A DNA stretch of 64,000 nt, taken from the NCBI RefSeq assembly GCF_000299395.1, contig NC_018656.1, forward strand, positions 1,240,001-1,304,000. Direction: 5' to 3'. A program made the translations under genes and the position numbers. Of this stretch, positions 1 to 14,076 are shown piece after piece (position 1 is the stretch's first letter; each line of letters opens with the position of its first letter). This stretch comes from Candidatus Nitrosopumilus sediminis. Lineage in GTDB: Archaea > Thermoproteota > Nitrososphaeria > Nitrososphaerales > Nitrosopumilaceae. Below the pieces are notes generated by a model that saw only the letters and a program-made list of their open reading frames with translations, made no database searches and was not told the DNA's origin.

Positions 1-1360
1 ATAGGAATTGAGTAACAGTAGAAAATATTCTCTGACTGCCTGGGCTTCCAAGCACCATCCAAAGTTTAGAATTATTGAAAATTAATGCAGGAGATACAGA
101 AGTCCACGGTATAGCATTAGGTCTAATGTAAAAGGGATGATTTGGGTTAGTAAATTCAAATGCAGACATGTAATTGTTGTATAAAAATCCCAACCCATCA
201 GCTGCTGCTTTAGAACCATAGGCAAGTTCGATAGATTGAGTGATACCTACAGCATTTCCCTCATCATCCATAGTTGATAGATGTGTTGTATCTTCACCAC
301 CAAAATCAGGATCAATCATGGGCAATGTGGCATCCATAGAATTATGAATTGAATCAGCCATCTGTTTTGCAAAGGATCTTTGGAGATGTATTTTTTCCAC
401 AATTTGATCATATGTGTGTCGATTAAATGGTCGCTGAACTCGATGTAAGAATGCTTTTCTGAAGGTTTCTGCAACAAAATGATATGAGCTAGGTTTTGAG
501 CTACGCAAAAATTTGGAAGGGAGATGATTAAGCATCATGAGTGTAAGTAACAAAGTTCTTCCAGCTGCAGGGGGAGGTAGTGTTACAACAGTTAAATGTC
601 TATATTTTCTGCTAATAGGTTTTCGAATTAATGGTTCTGGTATGTATGACAAATCTTCTTCCTGAATTAGACCTCTATTATTTTTCATATCAAGAGCAAT
701 TTTTTTTGCAATTTCACCATGATAGAAAATTTGATATCCATAATCTGAAATCATGCCAAGCGTTGCAGCTAGATCTTTTTGAACGAATCTATCTCCAACA
801 TCATATGGAACAACACCATCTTTTAAGAAATATTTCGCACCTGATTTAGATTTGATTGAAAGAAAATTTTTTAGTTCTCTTTCTTGTAAGTCATGTTGGA
901 GTTGGGTAATTTTGTATCCTTTTTTGGCAATGTGAATTGATGGTGCAACTATTTTTTGCCATTCCAATTTACCGTATCTTTCATGTAGAAATCCAATTAG
1001 AGCCAAAGTGCTTGGAACTGTGGTTGCTTTGTACCCCAGACGACGATTTTTTGTCTTTGTGTAAGCTGATGAATTTGCCAAAGAAGGAGAACGACTAGAG
1101 CCATCAATTGCGTATGATTTTCCATTAACATGAATAATTCCCATAGATTGGCCTCCAATTCCAGAAGCTTGAGGTTCACACACACCTAATGCAAGGGCTG
1201 TTGCACATGCTGCATCAATTGCATTGCCTCCTTTTTTGAGCATTTCAACTCCTGCCTTTGTTGCATCAGGAAATGCTGATGACACCATACCTCTTTTTGC
1301 AACGGAGCATTTCTTGTTAGAAGTAGCTTTGAATGATTTTTCTATTTGTTCAAGCTTCAA
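1..1360 (-). CDS. ggt: Gamma-glutamyltransferase (3' end beyond window)
   Basis: The reverse strand reads through without a stop from a TTG at 1358-1360 (AGAAGGA ribosome site just upstream) to the window edge, so the C-terminus is missing. The N-terminal region has the family pattern MLKKGGNAIDAACAT followed by GIGGQSMG. The Thr-Thr-His-x-Ser motif that supplies the N-terminal nucleophile threonine of Ntn-hydrolase gamma-glutamyltransferases lies near residue 358 (DTTHLSTMD, codons at about 275-292). The enzyme transfers or hydrolyses gamma-glutamyl groups of peptides; members mature by self-cleavage before that threonine. No signal peptide is evident, so a cytoplasmic form is likely. It follows the K+ channel stop by 15 nt and is probably the last or a late gene of that operon. 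Only a TTG start is available. Confidence 0.88.
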   Translation of the reverse strand, partial: MKLEQIEKSFKATSNKKCSVAKRGMVSSAFPDATKAGVEMLKKGGNAIDAACATALALGVCEPQASGIGGQSMGIIHVNGKSYAIDGSSRSPSLANSSAYTKTKNRRLGYKATTVPSTLALIGFLHERYGKLEWQKIVAPSIHIAKKGYKITQLQHDLQERELKNFLSIKSKSGAKYFLKDGVVPYDVGDRFVQKDLAATLGMISDYGYQIFYHGEIAKKIALDMKNNRGLIQEEDLSYIPEPLIRKPISRKYRHLTVVTLPPPAAGRTLLLTLMMLNHLPSKFLRSSKPSSYHFVAETFRKAFLHRVQRPFNRHTYDQIVEKIHLQRSFAKQMADSIHNSMDATLPMIDPDFGGEDTTHLSTMDDEGNAVGITQSIELAYGSKAAADGLGFLYNNYMSAFEFTNPNHPFYIRPNAIPWTSVSPALIFNNSKLWMVLGSPGSQRIFSTVTQFL

Positions 1361-1375
1361 TTTCCAATTCCTTCT

Positions 1376-2179
1376 TTAATTACGAGATATATCCTTTCCA
1401 CAGTGAGGACAGGTATTGTTATTCTGCATCTTCTTTTTTCTTAGCTCTTCAGTAAATGCAGATGCCATAATCCCTGTAGGGATTGCATAGACAGCAATTC
1501 CAATTACAGCAACACCAGCAGCAATTAATTTCCCAGGCACAGTTACGGGGTAAACATCACCATAACCTATAGTGGTAAGAGTAACAATTCCCCACCACAT
1601 AGATGCAGGAATGCTAGAAAAAGCTTCAGGTTGTACTTCATGTTCGGCATGATACATCAAACTAGATGCAAAAATCAATACAATAAATAAAATAAAAAAT
1701 GCAACTGCTAAGTCCCCTGCCTTTGATTTGAATACATGTCCCAAAGTTTGCATCGGATCAGAATACCTTGCAAGTTTGAAGAGTCTGAACAATCTCAAAA
1801 GTCTAATTATTCTAATGAAGCGAGTATCTGCAACCACAAAAGGTAAGAAGAATGGAAGTATTGCAGCTAAATCAACTAGCATCATAGGAGTGAATACAAA
1901 TCTAATAAAACCTAACTTTGAATTTTGATATTTTGGGTTTAGTTTACAAACCATAATTCTTCCAATGTATTCTGATGTGAAAATAATAATGGAAAATACT
2001 TCAAAAGGAGTAAAGAGATAACCGTATTCATCTAAAACAGATTCTTCTGTTTCAATTATAACTACAATAACATTTACAGTAATCAAAGCGATAATGAAAA
2101 ATTGAAAAGTTTTTGTAACTTTATCATCAGTTGTCCCTTCAAGAATTTCATATGTTCTTTGCAGTGCTCTGTTGCTCAT
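1376..2179 (-). CDS. Voltage-gated potassium channel, six-TM, C-terminal zinc motif
   Basis: 267 aa. Four voltage-sensor helices precede a pore: S4 is arginine/lysine-spaced around residues 120-137 (RFIRIIRLLRLFRLFKLAR), and the K+ selectivity filter TTIGYGD is at about 202-208, followed by S6. This is the KvAP-like archaeal Kv architecture; four subunits would form a K+-selective membrane pore gated by voltage. The tail carries CPHCGKD at about 257-263, only one CxxC pair, so a zinc site would need to form between subunits. It sits between the CorA-like gene (57 nt upstream) and gamma-glutamyltransferase (15 nt downstream) on the same strand. Confidence 0.92.
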   Translation of the reverse strand: MSNRALQRTYEILEGTTDDKVTKTFQFFIIALITVNVIVVIIETEESVLDEYGYLFTPFEVFSIIIFTSEYIGRIMVCKLNPKYQNSKLGFIRFVFTPMMLVDLAAILPFFLPFVVADTRFIRIIRLLRLFRLFKLARYSDPMQTLGHVFKSKAGDLAVAFFILFIVLIFASSLMYHAEHEVQPEAFSSIPASMWWGIVTLTTIGYGDVYPVTVPGKLIAAGVAVIGIAVYAIPTGIMASAFTEELRKKKMQNNNTCPHCGKDISRN

Positions 2180-2236: not shown

Positions 2237-3883
2237 TTAAAGCCATCTCTTTTTCCTAAACCAAGCAATCATAATTCCAGATATTGTTGCCATTGCAATT
2301 AACATTACAAAATAACTTCCTTCCCATTCTAGTTCTGGCACATATGAAAAATTAGTTCCATAGATACCAGCTATGAATGTAATTGGAATGAAAATTGCTG
2401 CAACTATGGTTAAAGTCTTCATTACTTCATTCATACGATTGCTCACACTTGAGAGATAAGTATCGAGCATACCCCCAATTACATCACGTAGTCCTTCAAT
2501 AGAATCAGTGACTTGGATTACGTGATTATAAACATCACGAAGATATGTTCGAGTACCATCAGAAATCAAAATGGTGGAATCTCGTCCCAAATAGTCCACG
2601 ATTTCACGTGCAGGCCAAATGGATTTTCTCAGTGCAATCATCCGTCGCTTTAATGTTTGAATAGTCTGCATAGTCTCAGGTGTAGGATTTTTCATCAATT
2701 CTTCTTCTATGTTTTCTGTCATGTCACCGACTTTTTCAATAACTAGAAAATAACTGTCAATAATTGCATCAATTATTGCATATGTAAGATAATCACTTTG
2801 AAGTTTTCGAATACTTCCTGAGCTGTTTCTTAATCTTTTTCTAATTTGATCAAAAAAGTCTGCACTATGTTCTTGAAAAGTCAAAACATGGTTTTGAGCT
2901 AAAATAACAGATACTTGTTCTAATTCTAGTTTGCCTGTTTCATCATCATAATGAGGCATCTTTAACATAATCAAGACATAGTTATCAAATACCTCGATGT
3001 ATGGTCTTAATTCAGTATTCATTATGTTTGACTGATGGAGTGCATGGATGTCAAAATTATCCCCAAATTTTTTAATGATTTCTGCATCATGAACACCAAC
3101 CACATTAATCCAAGATACATTTGGTTTGTTTTTAGATTCTAAACATTCTTCAATTGTGGCATTGCCTATTTCGTTGATATTTTTCTCATCATATTCAATT
3201 AAATTCATTGTGACTTGATCAACTTTTCTTTCTCCAACATGAATTAGAGCTCCAGGACGTTGTCCAATTGTATCAACCAAAGTTGTTTTCTGGGTTTTAG
3301 TTTTATTCATAATGCGTGTAATACCTGCAATATCTTGCAATCCAAGATCTTTTGTGATTTCTTTAACTTTGGATGTCTTGCTTGCTACCCCCACAATAAT
3401 AAAGCCAGCAATTATTGAAAAAATAACACTAACAGTTAACGGGGTAAAATCACCTATTATTGCAGCCTGATAAATAGCAGTTACATCAGTTTTTGATCCC
3501 GTTTCAACAATGAATCCAATTATTGTATCAAGTAAAAAGAACAAGAAAGAGATTGAGGCACCAATAATTATAGCAGTTACAACAGTAATCTTTGGTGGAA
3601 TTTCAATATCTTTTTCACCTTTGTAAGGAGACAAATATTTTTTGTATCTAATTATTAACAACGCCATCACAGTGATAATAATTGTTGAGATAATCCACCA
3701 ACCTACAAGCCATGGTCCTTGATGTGAATCAATTTGTTCAACTCCAGATATAAGATCTTGGATATTTCCTGTTAGAGGTAATGAAAATAAAGATGTTGCA
3801 ATTCCAATAACAATTTGATACAAAAAAGCAAAAGTAAATCCATAAACAAGCCTGTTTATGACTATGCCAATTTTATCTCTCAT
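2237..3883 (-). CDS. CorA-like divalent-cation transporter with extra N-terminal membrane domain
   Basis: 548 aa, longer than usual CorA proteins (about 320-370 aa). Residues 1-180 hold about four extra hydrophobic segments of unknown role. From about residue 205 the sequence follows the CorA cytoplasmic funnel, with the long stalk helix and two C-terminal TM helices separated by YGTNF near residue 508, in the place of the CorA YGMNF selectivity motif. A Mg2+ or related divalent-cation flux role is therefore inferred; the GTN variant occurs in CorA-like relatives whose ion preference differs. The start lies 5 nt downstream of the stop of a 54-aa ORF, suggesting one transcript. Confidence 0.85.
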   Translation of the reverse strand: MRDKIGIVINRLVYGFTFAFLYQIVIGIATSLFSLPLTGNIQDLISGVEQIDSHQGPWLVGWWIISTIIITVMALLIIRYKKYLSPYKGEKDIEIPPKITVVTAIIIGASISFLFFLLDTIIGFIVETGSKTDVTAIYQAAIIGDFTPLTVSVIFSIIAGFIIVGVASKTSKVKEITKDLGLQDIAGITRIMNKTKTQKTTLVDTIGQRPGALIHVGERKVDQVTMNLIEYDEKNINEIGNATIEECLESKNKPNVSWINVVGVHDAEIIKKFGDNFDIHALHQSNIMNTELRPYIEVFDNYVLIMLKMPHYDDETGKLELEQVSVILAQNHVLTFQEHSADFFDQIRKRLRNSSGSIRKLQSDYLTYAIIDAIIDSYFLVIEKVGDMTENIEEELMKNPTPETMQTIQTLKRRMIALRKSIWPAREIVDYLGRDSTILISDGTRTYLRDVYNHVIQVTDSIEGLRDVIGGMLDTYLSSVSNRMNEVMKTLTIVAAIFIPITFIAGIYGTNFSYVPELEWEGSYFVMLIAMATISGIMIAWFRKKRWL

Positions 3884-3888
3884 CTTAA

Positions 3889-4053
3889 TTACACCTCATT
3901 TGAGATCCTTTGAATTATTATTAAAACAGGTTTGTTTTTTTTCACTTGTTTGATTTTAATTGATGGTGAGTTTGGTGCATATCCAACTTTTGCGATAGCA
4001 TGCATTAAATCAATCAATACAGGCAGTCTAATTAACTGATATTCTAAACTCAT
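3889..4053 (-). CDS. Small coupled protein, 54 aa, unknown function
   Basis: A short frame beginning MSLEYQLIRLPVLIDLMH and ending IIIQRISNEV. Its ATG overlaps the TGA of the ATP-grasp/M20 gene (ATGA at 4050-4053), a classical translational-coupling arrangement, and its TAA lies 5 nt before the CorA-like start, so it fills the gap between two genes exactly. The predicted product is small, basic in the middle (IKIKQVKKNK) and has a hydrophobic C-terminal beta-like stretch. I recognise no family. Position and coupling are the main evidence that it is a real gene. Confidence 0.6.
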   Translation of the reverse strand: MSLEYQLIRLPVLIDLMHAIAKVGYAPNSPSIKIKQVKKNKPVLIIIQRISNEV

Positions 4054-6218
4054 TTTTGAGCACATCTAAAGATGACTGATGCCAATAATGCAGCACGATC
4101 TACAATGCTGTCATGAATTATGTATTCTTTAGTTGAGCGATAGTTATGTCCTAAAGGTCCAAACCCATCTAATGCTGGAAGTTTAGTTGGAACATTACTA
4201 ATATCTGAAGAGATAAGTTGAGAATGTTTTTTGATTTTAATTTCATGTTTTTTAGCAAGATCTTCAACCATCTCATAAAATTTTGTGTCAGAAGGTTCTT
4301 CTAACACTGCAGGTCTAGTTTGAATTTTATTTATGGATACATCCAATTTTTTAGAACCTGTTTCTCTTTTTTTCATTATAGTTTGAATTTTTGATTCAAG
4401 TAATTCTCCGAGTTTTTTTGTTTTATAACTACATATCAATGTCAATGTGGCAAAATTTGGAGTATTACCATGAGAACCCTTTGAAACAACAGAGGTAGTT
4501 CTTAATCGATAATCTTTTTCGTCTTTTGATAGCTTTTCAAGTGCAGTAAGTTTTTTTGCTAAAACAGGAATTATTCCATGAATGTCTGAGGTGGGTTGAT
4601 CATTAGGAGTAGTAAATCTAATTTGATAATCATTCCTACCATAACAAGTAGTTATAATCCCACCATCTTTACTACCTGATTTTAATCCAATGATATATTT
4701 TGATTTTTTAGAATATTCTTTAACGAATTTTTTGCTAAATCTTCCACCTAAACTATCATCAGTGGTAAGTAATACAGCACATCTTACTTTTCGAAGTTTT
4801 TTGGCAAAACGTAATGCATGTAATGCACCTAGCATTACTGCCAATCCACCTTTACTTTCTGCAATACCTGAACCCAATATTTTGTCATTTTCTTCATGAT
4901 AGCTAATTAGATCATCAGGTCCATAGTGCGTATCAAGATGGGAGATTAGAAGAACATCATTTTCAGGCTCTGTATGATTTTTAAAATAATAAAAATTTCC
5001 AACATCATATTGTCTATGAATATGCTCACTAAATCCAAGATGTTTTAATCTCCTAGAGATCATATTTCCTAGTTGATTTACATTTTCAATATTGTATACG
5101 TGGGTATTTAGATTCACAAAATTCTGCAGGGTTTCTTTTATGCTATGTAAGTGTCCCCTCAGATAGGTTCTAGCAACGACACGTAATGGTTGAGTTAAAT
5201 CAGTCTCATTGTCATGTTGATGGATAGAAGATCCAAAATATCGAATTACAGATACATCTAGGATTTTATTTATTAAAGAATCATATGTATATCCAGCAAC
5301 TTGTGCTGCATAATAATACGAGCCACCAAGTCCTAGACTTGCCATTGAATTTAATTCAAGAATGTAAAGATTCTCGTCTTTGTCCATCCTAAAATCAACT
5401 CTAGCATAATCATTTAATCCCAAAGAGGCAAATGCCTTGATGCACATCTGCTTCATTTCTTCTGTTTTTTCTTTAGATAATTTTGCAGGACATGTTTTAT
5501 CAACACCACCCTTTTTCTTTTTATCAGATATCGTTTGTATTTGATCTGGATCATCTAGATTGATTTCAACTATTGGAAGAACATCTATGTTAGGACTATT
5601 TCCCAATAACCCTACTGCAAATTCTCGTCCTGAAATGAATTGTTCTACTAGGATATCCTGTTGGAATTTTTCAATTTGAACTCTTACTGCAGCTCGAAGA
5701 TCATCCCAATTATCCACTACTTCCATTCCCATAGATGTGGATTCTAGTTTTGGTTTAACAATCACAGGAAACACTAGATCATCGTATGTATCTTCAGGAG
5801 TTCTAAACACCCAAAATCCAGGAGTTGGAATATTGTTTTTCTGTAAAACAATTTTTGTCATTACCTTATCTTGAACAACTGCATGTCCTGCAGGGCCTGA
5901 CCCCATGTATGGAATTCCAAGCATCTCCATCATTGCCGGAACATGTGTGTATCTGTTCTGACCTTGAATGCCATACGCCATGTTGAAAACCATTCCAGGG
6001 GTTTCACCTGCAACAACTTTTGGCATAAATTCTCGTAATTCATCAGCGAGATGGATATCTCCTTCAATCACTTTTACAGTATGACCACCTTTTTCTAATG
6101 CTCTTGCAACTCTTTCTACAGCCTTTGTACTGTAATGCTCTTTTGTAGTCATTCCAAAAACATTGATTACATCATTTGGATCTATCTGAGTTTCATTATA
6201 GATTAAGGCAACTTTCAT
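4050..6218 (-). CDS. ATP-grasp (D-Ala-D-Ala ligase-like) fused to M20 metallopeptidase-like domain
   Basis: 722 aa with two enzyme domains. Residues 1-330 follow the D-alanine-D-alanine ligase/ATP-grasp fold: FPVIVKPKLESTSMG (ATP-binding lysine and glycine-rich loop), ILVEQFISGREFAVG, and the metal-binding end RVDFRMDKDENLYILELNS. Residues about 345-722 resemble M20 (ArgE/DapE/carnosinase) hydrolases: ISHLDTH, SGIAESKGG, TTDDSLGG and C-terminal GPLGHNYRSTKEYI. In the M20 half the usual Asp of the second motif is Glu and the usual Glu-Glu pair is Asp-Asp, and the third ligand motif is not apparent, so hydrolase activity is uncertain. The fusion suggests making and trimming (or proofreading) of a small peptide or amino-acid conjugate; substrate unknown. 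First gene of the operon. Confidence 0.85.
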   Translation of the reverse strand: MKVALIYNETQIDPNDVINVFGMTTKEHYSTKAVERVARALEKGGHTVKVIEGDIHLADELREFMPKVVAGETPGMVFNMAYGIQGQNRYTHVPAMMEMLGIPYMGSGPAGHAVVQDKVMTKIVLQKNNIPTPGFWVFRTPEDTYDDLVFPVIVKPKLESTSMGMEVVDNWDDLRAAVRVQIEKFQQDILVEQFISGREFAVGLLGNSPNIDVLPIVEINLDDPDQIQTISDKKKKGGVDKTCPAKLSKEKTEEMKQMCIKAFASLGLNDYARVDFRMDKDENLYILELNSMASLGLGGSYYYAAQVAGYTYDSLINKILDVSVIRYFGSSIHQHDNETDLTQPLRVVARTYLRGHLHSIKETLQNFVNLNTHVYNIENVNQLGNMISRRLKHLGFSEHIHRQYDVGNFYYFKNHTEPENDVLLISHLDTHYGPDDLISYHEENDKILGSGIAESKGGLAVMLGALHALRFAKKLRKVRCAVLLTTDDSLGGRFSKKFVKEYSKKSKYIIGLKSGSKDGGIITTCYGRNDYQIRFTTPNDQPTSDIHGIIPVLAKKLTALEKLSKDEKDYRLRTTSVVSKGSHGNTPNFATLTLICSYKTKKLGELLESKIQTIMKKRETGSKKLDVSINKIQTRPAVLEEPSDTKFYEMVEDLAKKHEIKIKKHSQLISSDISNVPTKLPALDGFGPLGHNYRSTKEYIIHDSIVDRAALLASVIFRCAQK

Positions 6219-9997: not shown

Positions 9998-11329
9998 TTA
10001 GCGATATACTTGCAAAATTATTTTATGCAGTTCTGCTTTTGTAGAGAGTAATTCTTTACGTAGTGCATCTATCTTCAGAGTAGATTCAGAAATAGTATTA
10101 TCACGTTCTTCTTTACTAATTGAACTTGAAGTTAAAACAGAATTGAGTTTGTCCTGTTCTATTTTCATATCATCTTTCAAAGAATTAATCTTATTTTCTA
10201 GTGTCACTATAATTTCAGATGATTGTGTCTGACCTGCTAATTTAATTAAGATTGAATTAGAATTAAGTGCCGTAATTTTTCCAGTTGAAATCTGGCATGA
10301 ATTAGGAGAAATCTTTTCTGCCATCTGTATTGTCTTCTTCGATATATCAGAAGATAATTCCACTATTGGGATTCTTAAACCAGTATTATCTGTGCAAATC
10401 TCAAAAATCATATTATATGCCATAGAATTTTCAGGCTTATCTTCTGGTTGTACAAGTGCCTCATGAACCGATATAATTTCAGAGACTACACCGTCAACAC
10501 TTACACCTGTTATGGATTTACCTTTTGGAATTGGTGCAATATCACTGGTTGGACTTAAGTTTAGAAACAACAAATATTTTTGAAGTTCATATCGTACATT
10601 TTTTAGTTCATCTCTAATCTCGGTTATTTTTTTGTGAATTGCAGAGACTTTTTTTGCTCGATCAGTACTTGGTGGCTCATTATTAATAGATGACAATTTT
10701 TCTCTTTGAATAGCAATATCAGATTGTAAAGTGGTAATTTTATTTTCAAGTTCAGTTATCGACTCAGTAATTCCACCATGATTTAGTAATTTAGCAGATA
10801 TACTATTAGGATCAGATGCTTTTACTAGAGATGCAGTAGTATAGCAAGACTTTAGATAGACATCTCGGAGTTTTACAGATTTTGTTTCAGAATCAGATAT
10901 AATAATTACCTCAGGAGATTTAATTTTTTCATCTAGTGCACAGATTTTGAAAACATAGTTGAAAGTGTTAATTTTTGGAAAAGATTCTACTACGCCAGGC
11001 TTTTTGTATTGCTTAGTTGTTGCCATGTGAGTAAGTGTACCTATTGGTTTTGATTGTTCATCAGATTCTTCCATTATTTTAGAAACTGGAAGTGCATATC
11101 CTCTTTCAACTAACAGATCAACAATTTCAGAAGTAACACATGCGGCATCCCCATTAGAAGTACGAATTATTTTTACAAGATGTTCTTTACAGACTACTTC
11201 CTTTGGAGTAAAATTAAGATCCATCTGATCTTTTGGAGGAATTACATCTGCAAACACAAAATTTGATGTAGTTACAGTAGATGCAAGTAGTACAAAGATC
11301 AAAAAGAATACAGAGAAAAATTTAGTCAA
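9998..11329 (-). CDS. Secreted coiled-coil protein, paralogue 1
   Basis: 443 aa. A signal peptide (FFSVFFLIFVLLAST) precedes DVIPPKDQM and the motif CKEHLVKIIRTSNGDAACV, a pattern frequent in thaumarchaeal exported proteins. The rest is an internal duplication: a beta-rich segment (FNYVFKICALD...DSETKSVKL) followed by a coiled coil, then a second beta segment (YNMIFEICTDN...) and second coiled coil. Each coiled coil starts with LENKI. The neighbour at 11378 shares the whole architecture, so the pair arose by tandem duplication. Cell-surface or envelope role is inferred; no enzyme motif seen. Confidence 0.75.
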   Translation of the reverse strand: MTKFFSVFFLIFVLLASTVTTSNFVFADVIPPKDQMDLNFTPKEVVCKEHLVKIIRTSNGDAACVTSEIVDLLVERGYALPVSKIMEESDEQSKPIGTLTHMATTKQYKKPGVVESFPKINTFNYVFKICALDEKIKSPEVIIISDSETKSVKLRDVYLKSCYTTASLVKASDPNSISAKLLNHGGITESITELENKITTLQSDIAIQREKLSSINNEPPSTDRAKKVSAIHKKITEIRDELKNVRYELQKYLLFLNLSPTSDIAPIPKGKSITGVSVDGVVSEIISVHEALVQPEDKPENSMAYNMIFEICTDNTGLRIPIVELSSDISKKTIQMAEKISPNSCQISTGKITALNSNSILIKLAGQTQSSEIIVTLENKINSLKDDMKIEQDKLNSVLTSSSISKEERDNTISESTLKIDALRKELLSTKAELHKIILQVYR

Positions 11330-11377: not shown

Positions 11378-12703
11378 TCATGAAGCTTTAAGCAATAATG
11401 AATTGAGTTTTACTCTATTTTCTAAAATATCATTACGCAATTCACTGATTTGTTCTGTTAGTTTTAGAGCAAGTGGTTCAGTGGCAGAATCGAGTTTTTT
11501 AGAAACTAAATCTCCCAGATTACTTCTCATATCAGCTAGAGAAGCCTCCATTTCTTTTATCTGAGTCTCTAAAGATTTGATTTGTGAGGAAACCGCAGAA
11601 TTTCCACTTATTGTTGGAACGATAGATTCAGAATCTAGTGCATTAATTCTTGTAATGCCAACCTGACATGAGTTTGGAATAATTCTATCAATTAATTTCA
11701 CATCAACGGATTCAGAATCTGAAGATACTGTGATTATAGGCAACCTAATACTTTGGGCACCAGCACATGCTTCAAAAACCACATTGAATCTTTTAAGTTC
11801 AGGATTATTAGAGCCAGTTGGAGATACACTATCAGTTACTGAGATCAGACTGGTACTCATCCCATCAAGGGGTTTTCCTGTAATGGATTTTGGTAAATCA
11901 ATTTTTGATGCTTTGACATTTGGTGGGACATACAAAACCATCAGATATCTTCTAAGTTGGTCTTGTAATCCTTTCAATTCTTTTTTCATAGATGCTATAT
12001 TATCCAAATCTTCATTTTTTGGGGATTGTTTATCAGATGTTGGAATTTTTTGTTTAGCAGTTGCAATTTTGCTTTTTAGATCAGCTATTTGAGTTTCAAG
12101 CGTAGAAATTTTTTCTGAAATTCCTCCTTTGTTTAGAAGGGTTGCAGCAATAGAGTTAGGATCTGCAGCTTTGATGTTTACAGAACTTGTGTAACATGAA
12201 CCAGGTTTTAATGCACTTGCTAACTTTACACTCTTTGTTTCACTATCAGAAGTTACATAGATTTCAGGAGCTTTTACTAATTTTGTAGTACCACAAGCAT
12301 CAAAGATATAGGCGTATCCAGAAATACTGGAAGATTTCGCACCAGAACTTGTTGAAAGTTGTTTCAAAGTTGCAATTTTTGTAATTGTTCCAGCGGATTC
12401 ACCTTTCATCAATTTTTTTGATTTGATTTCTTCTATTTTTTGCTCAGAGAGTTTTTTTGCCCATCCAGTCTTAGCTAATTTTTCAGCAGTAGATGGTTTT
12501 ACACATGAAGCTTTATCTGAAGAACTTTTTATTATTTTTACTAGCCCTTCTGCGCAGATTATTTGATCATTTGTAAAATCAAATTTCATCTGTTGTCTTG
12601 GACTAATTACATCTGCAAAAGATTGAAAAGGCAGCGTTCCTGAAATCAATACAATTCCAAGTAATACTGCAAATACAGGGATTAGATTCACAACAATATT
12701 CAT
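11378..12703 (-). CDS. Secreted coiled-coil protein, paralogue 2
   Basis: 441 aa, same layout as its downstream neighbour: signal peptide (VFAVLLGIVLISGTLPF), DVISPRQQM, CAEGLVKIIKSSSDKASCV, then two units of beta segment plus coiled coil (LETQIADLKSKIA and LETQIKEMEASLADM). Alternating cysteines in each beta segment (DACGTTK...GSCYT; EACAGAQ...NSCQV) suggest disulfides outside the cell. Spacing of 48 nt to the paralogue suggests cotranscription. Function unknown; perhaps an envelope-spacing or surface-binding protein. Confidence 0.75.
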   Translation of the reverse strand: MNIVVNLIPVFAVLLGIVLISGTLPFQSFADVISPRQQMKFDFTNDQIICAEGLVKIIKSSSDKASCVKPSTAEKLAKTGWAKKLSEQKIEEIKSKKLMKGESAGTITKIATLKQLSTSSGAKSSSISGYAYIFDACGTTKLVKAPEIYVTSDSETKSVKLASALKPGSCYTSSVNIKAADPNSIAATLLNKGGISEKISTLETQIADLKSKIATAKQKIPTSDKQSPKNEDLDNIASMKKELKGLQDQLRRYLMVLYVPPNVKASKIDLPKSITGKPLDGMSTSLISVTDSVSPTGSNNPELKRFNVVFEACAGAQSIRLPIITVSSDSESVDVKLIDRIIPNSCQVGITRINALDSESIVPTISGNSAVSSQIKSLETQIKEMEASLADMRSNLGDLVSKKLDSATEPLALKLTEQISELRNDILENRVKLNSLLLKAS

Positions 12704-12753: not shown

Positions 12754-14076
12754 TCAACTAGTATTTTTTTTGTCCATTCCAATATTTTTTAGAAACTTGT
12801 TTGATTCTGTCAGAGCATATTTTTTAATTTTGAGCCTATCATCTTTGTTGATAGATTTTGATGCCAAATGTAGCATCTCATCCATAAGACGAATGCCTCC
12901 TTGTGCTCCTTTTTCAAGCCCTAATTGATACAAAAGAGGCAATTTTGCCATGTCAACAGGCACATTCATTTTAATTTCAGAAAGGGCGATTTTCTTATCA
13001 GGCATTTCAATTTCAGTGAATTTGTCCACTACTTTAGATAGCAATGTTGCTAGATTTTCACCTAGATTTCTCTCAAGTTTTGTATTCTTTTCTTTTCTAG
13101 CCATCATTACTATTCTCTTAATCTTTAGTAGAGCCTGATTTGTCTCAACAGAATCAAAGTCGTTTGCAGAAAGATCCAAACCAAAATCATGCATAAATGA
13201 TTCTGCAACATATGAAATAGATTCTTTCCTACAAGACGCTTTTGTTGTTCCGAAAGGACAGTTTTCACAGTTTGTTGTAAAGTATCTAGCACCTCTTTGA
13301 CCAAAGCTTGAAAGAATAATTTTATCTTGCTCGCGTAATTTAGCGATAGTTCTAGAAACAAGTCCTTCATCAATTAGTAACGCTTGAGAGATTTCTTGAT
13401 TAGAGTAAGATCCTTCGTCAATTAATTCTAAAATTTCTTCTTCTAATTCACCAGGAGAACGTCTTGATGGTTCATCAATGGCATCAGCTAAATAATGAGG
13501 TACAAGTTTATCATTCTTTTCATGATTAATAATGAAAAATTTTCCATCAAATTTTGCATTAAATCCAGAAAGTGTCTCAGCCTTTAAAATTTTAGCAATA
13601 ATTTTTTCAAGGTTTTTTATTTTAAAATCATTTAACATTTCAGTTAATTTAATAGTTGAAATTTGCACATTTTTTGCAGCAAATAAATGATACAATGCCC
13701 ACCTAATTTTCCTTTCATCACTTCTCTCAATCAATCTTAGCAAACTACAAAAACTATCAATTCTTGTCCATTTAATATCAGAGAATTCAGTTTTTGAATT
13801 TTTAATGAATAGTGCTCTATCCAATTCTTTGGCGAAGTCTTCAAATTGTTTTTTCAGTTCAGATTTTTTAATTTTTGATATTTGCTTAATTTTGGAACTT
13901 TTAGTCATCACATCTAATAACTCCTCTTTAGACAGAATTGTTTCACCTCGAAGTGATTTGGTTTCATATTTTAGAAATTCAAAAAATTCCAGAGTTCTAT
14001 TTTTGATAGAAATAGGAGGAAATACTCTAAGTCCAGAGAGATTAGAAGATGTTAGTCCCACAGAGGTACATAACAT
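12754..14076 (-). CDS. Winged-helix DNA-binding protein with cysteine cluster
   Basis: 440 aa. A winged-helix segment is visible at about 210-260 (LIDEGSYSNQEISQALLIDEGL then VSRTIAKLREQDKI). It is followed by TTNCENCPFGTTKASCRKE (about 267-285), three cysteines that could hold zinc or an iron-sulfur cluster. The N-terminal 150 residues and C-terminal 150 are helical. The layout faintly recalls TFE-beta/RPC34-type factors (winged helix plus Cys cluster), but the protein is larger and I do not claim it. Start choice uncertain: there is no obvious ribosome site at 14076. Confidence 0.6.
   Translation of the reverse strand: MLCTSVGLTSSNLSGLRVFPPISIKNRTLEFFEFLKYETKSLRGETILSKEELLDVMTKSSKIKQISKIKKSELKKQFEDFAKELDRALFIKNSKTEFSDIKWTRIDSFCSLLRLIERSDERKIRWALYHLFAAKNVQISTIKLTEMLNDFKIKNLEKIIAKILKAETLSGFNAKFDGKFFIINHEKNDKLVPHYLADAIDEPSRRSPGELEEEILELIDEGSYSNQEISQALLIDEGLVSRTIAKLREQDKIILSSFGQRGARYFTTNCENCPFGTTKASCRKESISYVAESFMHDFGLDLSANDFDSVETNQALLKIKRIVMMARKEKNTKLERNLGENLATLLSKVVDKFTEIEMPDKKIALSEIKMNVPVDMAKLPLLYQLGLEKGAQGGIRLMDEMLHLASKSINKDDRLKIKKYALTESNKFLKNIGMDKKNTS

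Follow-up and report, generated by a model that had tools for sequence, protein, structure and literature searches.

The window, a 64,000-nucleotide stretch of the Candidatus Nitrosopumilus sediminis genome, encodes a protein in which a ligase fold of the D-Ala-D-Ala ligase (Ddl) type is joined to an M20 peptidase fold. To our knowledge, peptidoglycan (murein) is absent from archaea. What might such a ligase make, and does the attached peptidase half still cleave anything? Archaea of the Nitrosopumilus type rank among the most abundant marine nitrifiers. In some marine ammonia-oxidising archaea the fusion of an apparently working ligase to a probable pseudo-peptidase occurs together with the same two amidases, which suggests an as yet undescribed route to a small peptide-like compound.

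The fusion gene and its distribution

The gene lies at 4050..6218 on the minus strand and is a single open reading frame of 722 residues without internal stops, which we describe as a putative ATP-grasp amide ligase joined to a pseudo-M20 domain. Residues 1-330 (5229..6218, minus strand) form the Ddl-like ATP-grasp half, in which the ATP/Mg residues are kept and the D-Ala pocket is changed. They are followed by a linker at residues 331-344 (5187..5228, minus strand), assigned with low confidence from the AlphaFold model, where pLDDT is below 50 at residues 330-343. Residues 345-722 (4053..5186, minus strand) comprise a full M20 fold, for which carboxypeptidase G2 (CPG2) is the closest solved structure. 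In terms of Pfam families, Dala_Dala_lig_C matches residues 143-320 (E 1.8e-33) and Peptidase_M20 matches residues 423-716 (E 6.2e-12; 46.3 bits against a cut-off of 24.6). Two further M20 proteins are encoded by the same genome (1.69 Mb, one contig), both matching the M20 family more strongly.

The initial annotation had proposed an ATP-grasp/M20 fusion, to be discarded if the halves proved to be separate, frameshifted proteins. Given the intact frame, the two Pfam domains and some 30 relatives in which a single frame also spans both halves, the fusion is not a frameshift artefact, and the joining of separate genes by a frameshift is ruled out. Most of 21 public Nitrosopumilaceae loci likewise carry the fusion as one frame, and some loci end at contig edges. 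The AlphaFold model, built with 37 sequences, has a mean pLDDT of 83.5 and a pTM of 0.56, and the packing of the two halves against each other in it is uncertain. In the fusion alignment, 17% of the columns are invariant in the M20 half vs 47% in the ATP-grasp half.

Of 300 Thermoproteota genomes sampled, 15 carry the fusion, all of them Nitrosopumilaceae. Of 151 Nitrosopumilaceae genomes sampled, 26 carry it, with the match in one (G325) divided between two contigs. G089 gives a 27th match, to a standalone ATP-grasp, and is kept outside the 26. Within the genus the distribution is patchy. Outside the Nitrosopumilaceae, no fusion was seen in the 300 Thermoproteota genomes or the sampled plasmid records; no full-length fusion is present on plasmids among 72,556 records, and no M20 half was found in viral contigs at the sensitivity of that scan. 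The literature search returned no paper that treats this gene or a fusion of this type.

The ATP-grasp half

The comparison was made against DdlB, in which we take the set running from K97 to N272 to be the ATP/Mg residues, and H63, S150-Y216 and G276 to be the D-Ala pocket. K97, K144, E180, E187, R255, D257, E270 and N272 are all kept in the 30 fused and 7 standalone rows of the alignment. The pocket positions are altered: H63 corresponds to Y82, S150 to T161, Y216 to Lys, Val or Ile at position 234 (K234 in the window protein), and G276 to S294. Glu27 of the fusion stands at about DdlB E15, a match made by eye. In Foldseek, the fusion model matches Ddl enzymes with a TMt of about 0.8, and the curated NCBIfam cut-offs for Ddl are missed by a wide margin (165 vs 243 and 152 vs 246 bits).

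The natural reading of these residues is that the ATP-grasp half is an active ligase for a substrate other than D-Ala. The initial annotation had excluded D-Ala-D-Ala as the product since archaea lack peptidoglycan; the loss of the D-Ala pocket residues supports this conclusion beyond that mere absence.

The M20 half

A profile of the M20 half, built from 25 copies with identities as low as 40%, matches carboxypeptidase G2 with an E-value of 1.8e-19, and the model matches the same structure in Foldseek with an E-value of 2e-25 and a TMt of 0.77. In the model the M20 fold is whole, but its metal site is not. We take H112, D141 (bridging), E176, E200 and H385 to be the metal ligands of CPG2, and E175 its catalytic base. 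According to the profile alignment, H427-x-D429 (4932..4940, minus strand), corresponding to CPG2 H112 and D114, is kept in all copies. E454 (4857..4859, minus strand) replaces the bridging ligand D141 in all 25 copies, and D488-S489 (4752..4757, minus strand) replace the catalytic base E175 and the ligand E176, with D488 in 25 of 25 copies and S489 in 24, the remaining copy having Phe. Both K513 (4680..4682, minus strand), in place of the ligand E200, and R694 (4137..4139, minus strand), in place of the ligand H385, are invariant.

Hence, one CPG2 metal ligand is kept (H427), one is changed from Asp to Glu and three are lost in the 25 copies, while the Glu that acts as catalytic base in M20 peptidases is shortened to Asp. 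Overall, five of seven functional positions (metal site plus catalytic pair) are replaced, with near-zero variation among the copies. Among other CPG2 positions, R324 is kept, and H229, N275 and R288 are also changed in the window protein.

These results confirm, with corrections, what had been read from the letters alone. The replacement of Asp by Glu in GIAESKGG holds, and the apparent lack of the third ligand is explained by K513. The proposed change from Glu-Glu to Asp-Asp in TTDDSLGG, in contrast, was one residue out of register, the alignment giving DEE to DDS, and R694 is a fifth position which the initial annotation did not contain. As to its question whether all metal ligands are replaced once aligned to carboxypeptidase G2, they are not: three are lost and one is substituted, but H427 is kept.

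In the fusion alignment GIAESKGG is invariant and TDDSLGG nearly so, which indicates the substitutions are not due to chance. Since the substituted residues do not vary either, the pattern suggests selection for a new role and not decay. Judged from its residues, the M20 half is probably a pseudo-peptidase, although H427, D429 and the acidic E454 remain and may allow weak binding of a metal or some unusual chemistry.

Partner genes of the fusion

The second gene of the island encodes a CorA-family transporter of 548 residues (2237..3883, minus strand), which has an extra N-terminal membrane part and carries GTN (IYGTNF) at the usual GMN of CorA. The third encodes a K+-channel-like protein of 267 residues (1376..2179, minus strand). 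It is followed by a GGT-family Ntn amidase gene, cut by the window start (1..1360, minus strand; C1:1239735-1241360 in the genome) and, beyond the window, by an FGase-family gene (C1:1238965-1239729). The order fusion-(CNNM)-CorA-K+ channel-GGT-FGase recurs across 26 loci, usually as one operon, and at two loci (L023 and L057) the fusion is directly adjoined or overlapped by the GGT-like gene. Elsewhere in the window, two or more neighbouring genes encode similar proteins of about 440 residues that look secreted (9998-11329 and 11378-12703). A third may lie at 12754-14076, and the set resembles tandem paralogues.

Among the 151 Nitrosopumilaceae genomes, the GGT-like gene is present in 25 of the 26 with the fusion and in none of the 125 without it, and the FGase-family gene in 24 of 26 and 0 of 125, respectively. 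CorA occurs in 23 genomes with the fusion and 5 without, and the K+ channel in 19 with and 2 without. Fisher p-values range from 1e-27 to 2e-16 across partners, with kinship ignored; the genomes are related and not phylogenetically independent, and a single island shared by habitat could produce such co-occurrence. The link holds even where the genes lie on separate contigs (G162 and G318). G257 is the sole fusion genome in which no GGT was matched; there, a GGT remnant of 68 residues adjoins the fusion and is followed by unrelated sequence. At that locus (L056, 2436-2657) the GGT-like gene ends beside an intact fusion, representing either a decaying module or a misjoined contig.

The fusion gene belongs, therefore, to a co-inherited module with the GGT-family and FGase-family genes, which is the principal new result of the analysis. 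The upstream amidohydrolase was ruled out as a member, being present in 36 genomes of which 21 lack the fusion. No conserved small precursor-peptide family was found beside the fusion in the 26 loci, considering ORFs of at least 80 aa.

The GGT-like protein scores above the cut-off of the NCBI GGT model (367 vs 358 bits) and keeps the N-terminal nucleophile Thr of the small subunit (T358). The eight archaeal copies in the comparison all have S, E, Y and A at the positions of R114, N411, Q430 and D433 of E. coli GGT, which we assume form the γ-glutamyl pocket. Because the nucleophile is kept but these pocket residues are changed, the protein probably acts on a different acyl group, as an amidase or an acyl transferase. 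A γ-glutamyl product, as might be read from the name GGT, finds no support, since the pocket is lost. The FGase-like partner matches the Pfam FGase profile (N-formylglutamate amidohydrolase) with an E-value of 1.1e-43, and the sequence search yielded no solved relative.

Relatives in rhizobia and other Thermoproteota

Among plasmid-borne proteins, the ATP-grasp half is most similar to standalone enzymes of nodulating rhizobia, with 39-45% identity along its entire length. Examples are those on the symbiosis plasmids of Bradyrhizobium barranii (WP_011090946) and Sinorhizobium fredii NGR234 (WP_010875202). In the tree, the rhizobial enzymes and the ATP-grasp halves of the archaeal fusions form one clade with 100/100 support, with the other Thermoproteota groups apart. 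Several of the changed pocket residues are common to the fusion and its closest ATP-grasp, that of Bradyrhizobium. On plasmid NZ_CP088281.1 of B. barranii, a soybean symbiont, the gene stands in an operon of aminomutase, GGT, 7TM protein and ATP-grasp (L085, 4282-9047). Of the plasmid proteins, the one closest to the archaeal GGT is the GGT of this operon (36%, the next being 32.5%), whose pocket is altered in the same kind of way.

Other rhizobial ATP-grasp genes neighbour β-alanine (panD) or diaminobutyrate (ectB) genes, and more distant Ddl-like ligases of Thermoproteota adjoin lysine-2,3-aminomutase-like genes. These neighbours suggest a β- or diamino acid substrate, and no more than suggest it. 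No LAM_C-type aminomutase was matched in the genome of Ca. N. sediminis itself, so that the archaeal substrate may differ.

In three loci of other Thermoproteota (L061, L063 and L065), two Ddl-like ligases lie beside the lysine-2,3-aminomutase-like gene; in L065 the second ligase is itself fused to a GNAT domain, and L061 has a GNAT gene nearby. ORFs of about 660 aa from other Thermoproteota were ruled out as the same fusion, given a different N-terminal domain that appears methyltransferase-like by eye. Single ORFs of about 640-690 aa (L066, L067, L069 and L070, and also L068 and L071) appear to combine a SAM-methyltransferase part, recognised by eye, with a Ddl-like ATP-grasp, and form a separate clade.

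Proposed function and alternatives

We consider it reasonably likely that the fusion is an ATP-dependent amide ligase with a non-catalytic M20 binding module, and that two amidases process its peptide-like metabolite. An amino-acid-like substrate would have its carboxylate activated by the ATP-grasp half, as an acyl phosphate, and then be coupled to an amine. D-Ala is probably not this substrate; judged by the genes around relatives, it may be a β- or diamino acid or a short peptide. With Lys513 and Arg694 in the metal pocket, the M20 half would be unable to hold two zinc ions or to hydrolyse, and would most likely have a non-catalytic role, either binding a substrate or product that bears a carboxylate or holding the protein together. 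The product would then be handled, through acyl transfer or hydrolysis, by the co-inherited GGT-family and FGase-family amidases. The initial annotation had a peptide-like compound being made and then either degraded or bound by the M20 half. The intact ATP/Mg residues, the M20 metal site dismantled in every copy and the two co-occurring amidases speak for synthesis and binding, as predicted from sequence, whereas degradation by the M20 half is unsupported.

Ectoine is the best-known solute of this group, and many strains lack its genes. True EctC matches occur in 11 genomes, and the idea that the module replaces ectoine is unsupported, since nine of these also carry the fusion. Ectoine is among the known solutes of these archaea (PMC3043068, PMC8788347), and nothing in the literature found on their solutes describes the present gene. 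A salt or ion role is plausible from the transporters and the overlap with EctC, although habitat alone could explain both. A role in ion or osmotic balance, guessed from the K+ channel and the CorA/CNNM transporters in the island, is tentative. Rather doubtful is the broader proposal of a trans-domain module of marine ammonia-oxidising archaea and legume symbionts making an undescribed peptide-like metabolite, in which, in the archaea, the replacement of zinc by Lys and Arg side chains yields a carboxylate-binding site and the product acts as a compatible solute or organic counter-ion linked to the transport of K+ and Mg2+.

Three other explanations were weighed. The fusion might modify a protein or peptide, as RimK does, with the M20 half recognising the target and no small-molecule pathway involved. 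This is unlikely: a 7TM protein of the 7TM_transglut type does accompany the rhizobial ATP-grasp, and the two amidases could trim or exchange an added group, but the ATP-grasp is of the Ddl type, not the RimK type, and among ORFs of at least 80 aa in the 26 loci no conserved small precursor-peptide family was found. We judge slightly less probable a bifunctional synthetase/hydrolase, in which the M20 half would cleave the ligase's amide or another one through a rearranged or mononuclear metal site, acting as a built-in off switch. The entire fold is retained and an altered site is imaginable with H427, D429, E454 and D488 conserved; however, three of five metal ligands have become non-ligands, two of them basic (K513 and R694) in 25 of 25 copies, and H692 of the window protein, near R694, is unconserved and so provides no substitute ligand. 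The least probable is a functionless, weakly constrained M20 half riding on a working ligase, as its faster evolution and the many substitutions to unrelated residues might suggest, given that 26 of 26 genomes retain it (with the split match of G325) and the replacing residues are invariant, unlike in decay.

The ligase with a binding M20 module consequently remains our preferred reading. One ligase strictly co-inherited with two amidases predicts a specific, findable metabolite, and the dismantled M20 site with its invariant Lys and Arg is a clean test case for the conversion of a metallo-hydrolase into a binding domain. No earlier description of the module was found in the literature searched, although its parts, a Ddl-like ligase and an M20 pseudo-enzyme, are of known kinds.

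Comparison with known systems

The osmolyte operon for N-acetylglutaminylglutamine amide (NAGGN) comprises a GNAT-ATP-grasp fusion, an asparagine-synthetase-like amidotransferase and an M42 hydrolase. It resembles the archaeal module in linking, within a single operon, an ATP-grasp ligase to a metallopeptidase-fold hydrolase, which is an analogy only, as none of its three components is seen in the archaeal module. Closer are the KamA-linked pairs of other Thermoproteota, whose Ddl-like ATP-grasps are 35-43% identical and keep the ATP residues. They differ in being standalone, in pairing with lysine-2,3-aminomutase-like and GNAT genes, either convergently or on the same strand, and in belonging to a separate clade.

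In comparison with Ddl itself (NF002378, TIGR01205), the ATP-grasp half shares the fold and the ATP/Mg residues, yet it differs in the altered D-Ala pocket, the sub-cut-off scores, the attached M20 half and a host without murein. The M20 half has the two-domain fold of carboxypeptidase G2 and the M20 glutamate carboxypeptidases and keeps the positions of H112, D114 and R324, whereas D141 is changed to E, E175 to D, E176 to S, E200 to K and H385 to R, such that a dinuclear site would not be expected. Although the rhizobial standalone ATP-grasps lack an M20 half and have aminomutase and 7TM partners instead of the FGase, they share motifs with the archaeal fusion and, in Bradyrhizobium as in the archaea, a GGT-family partner.
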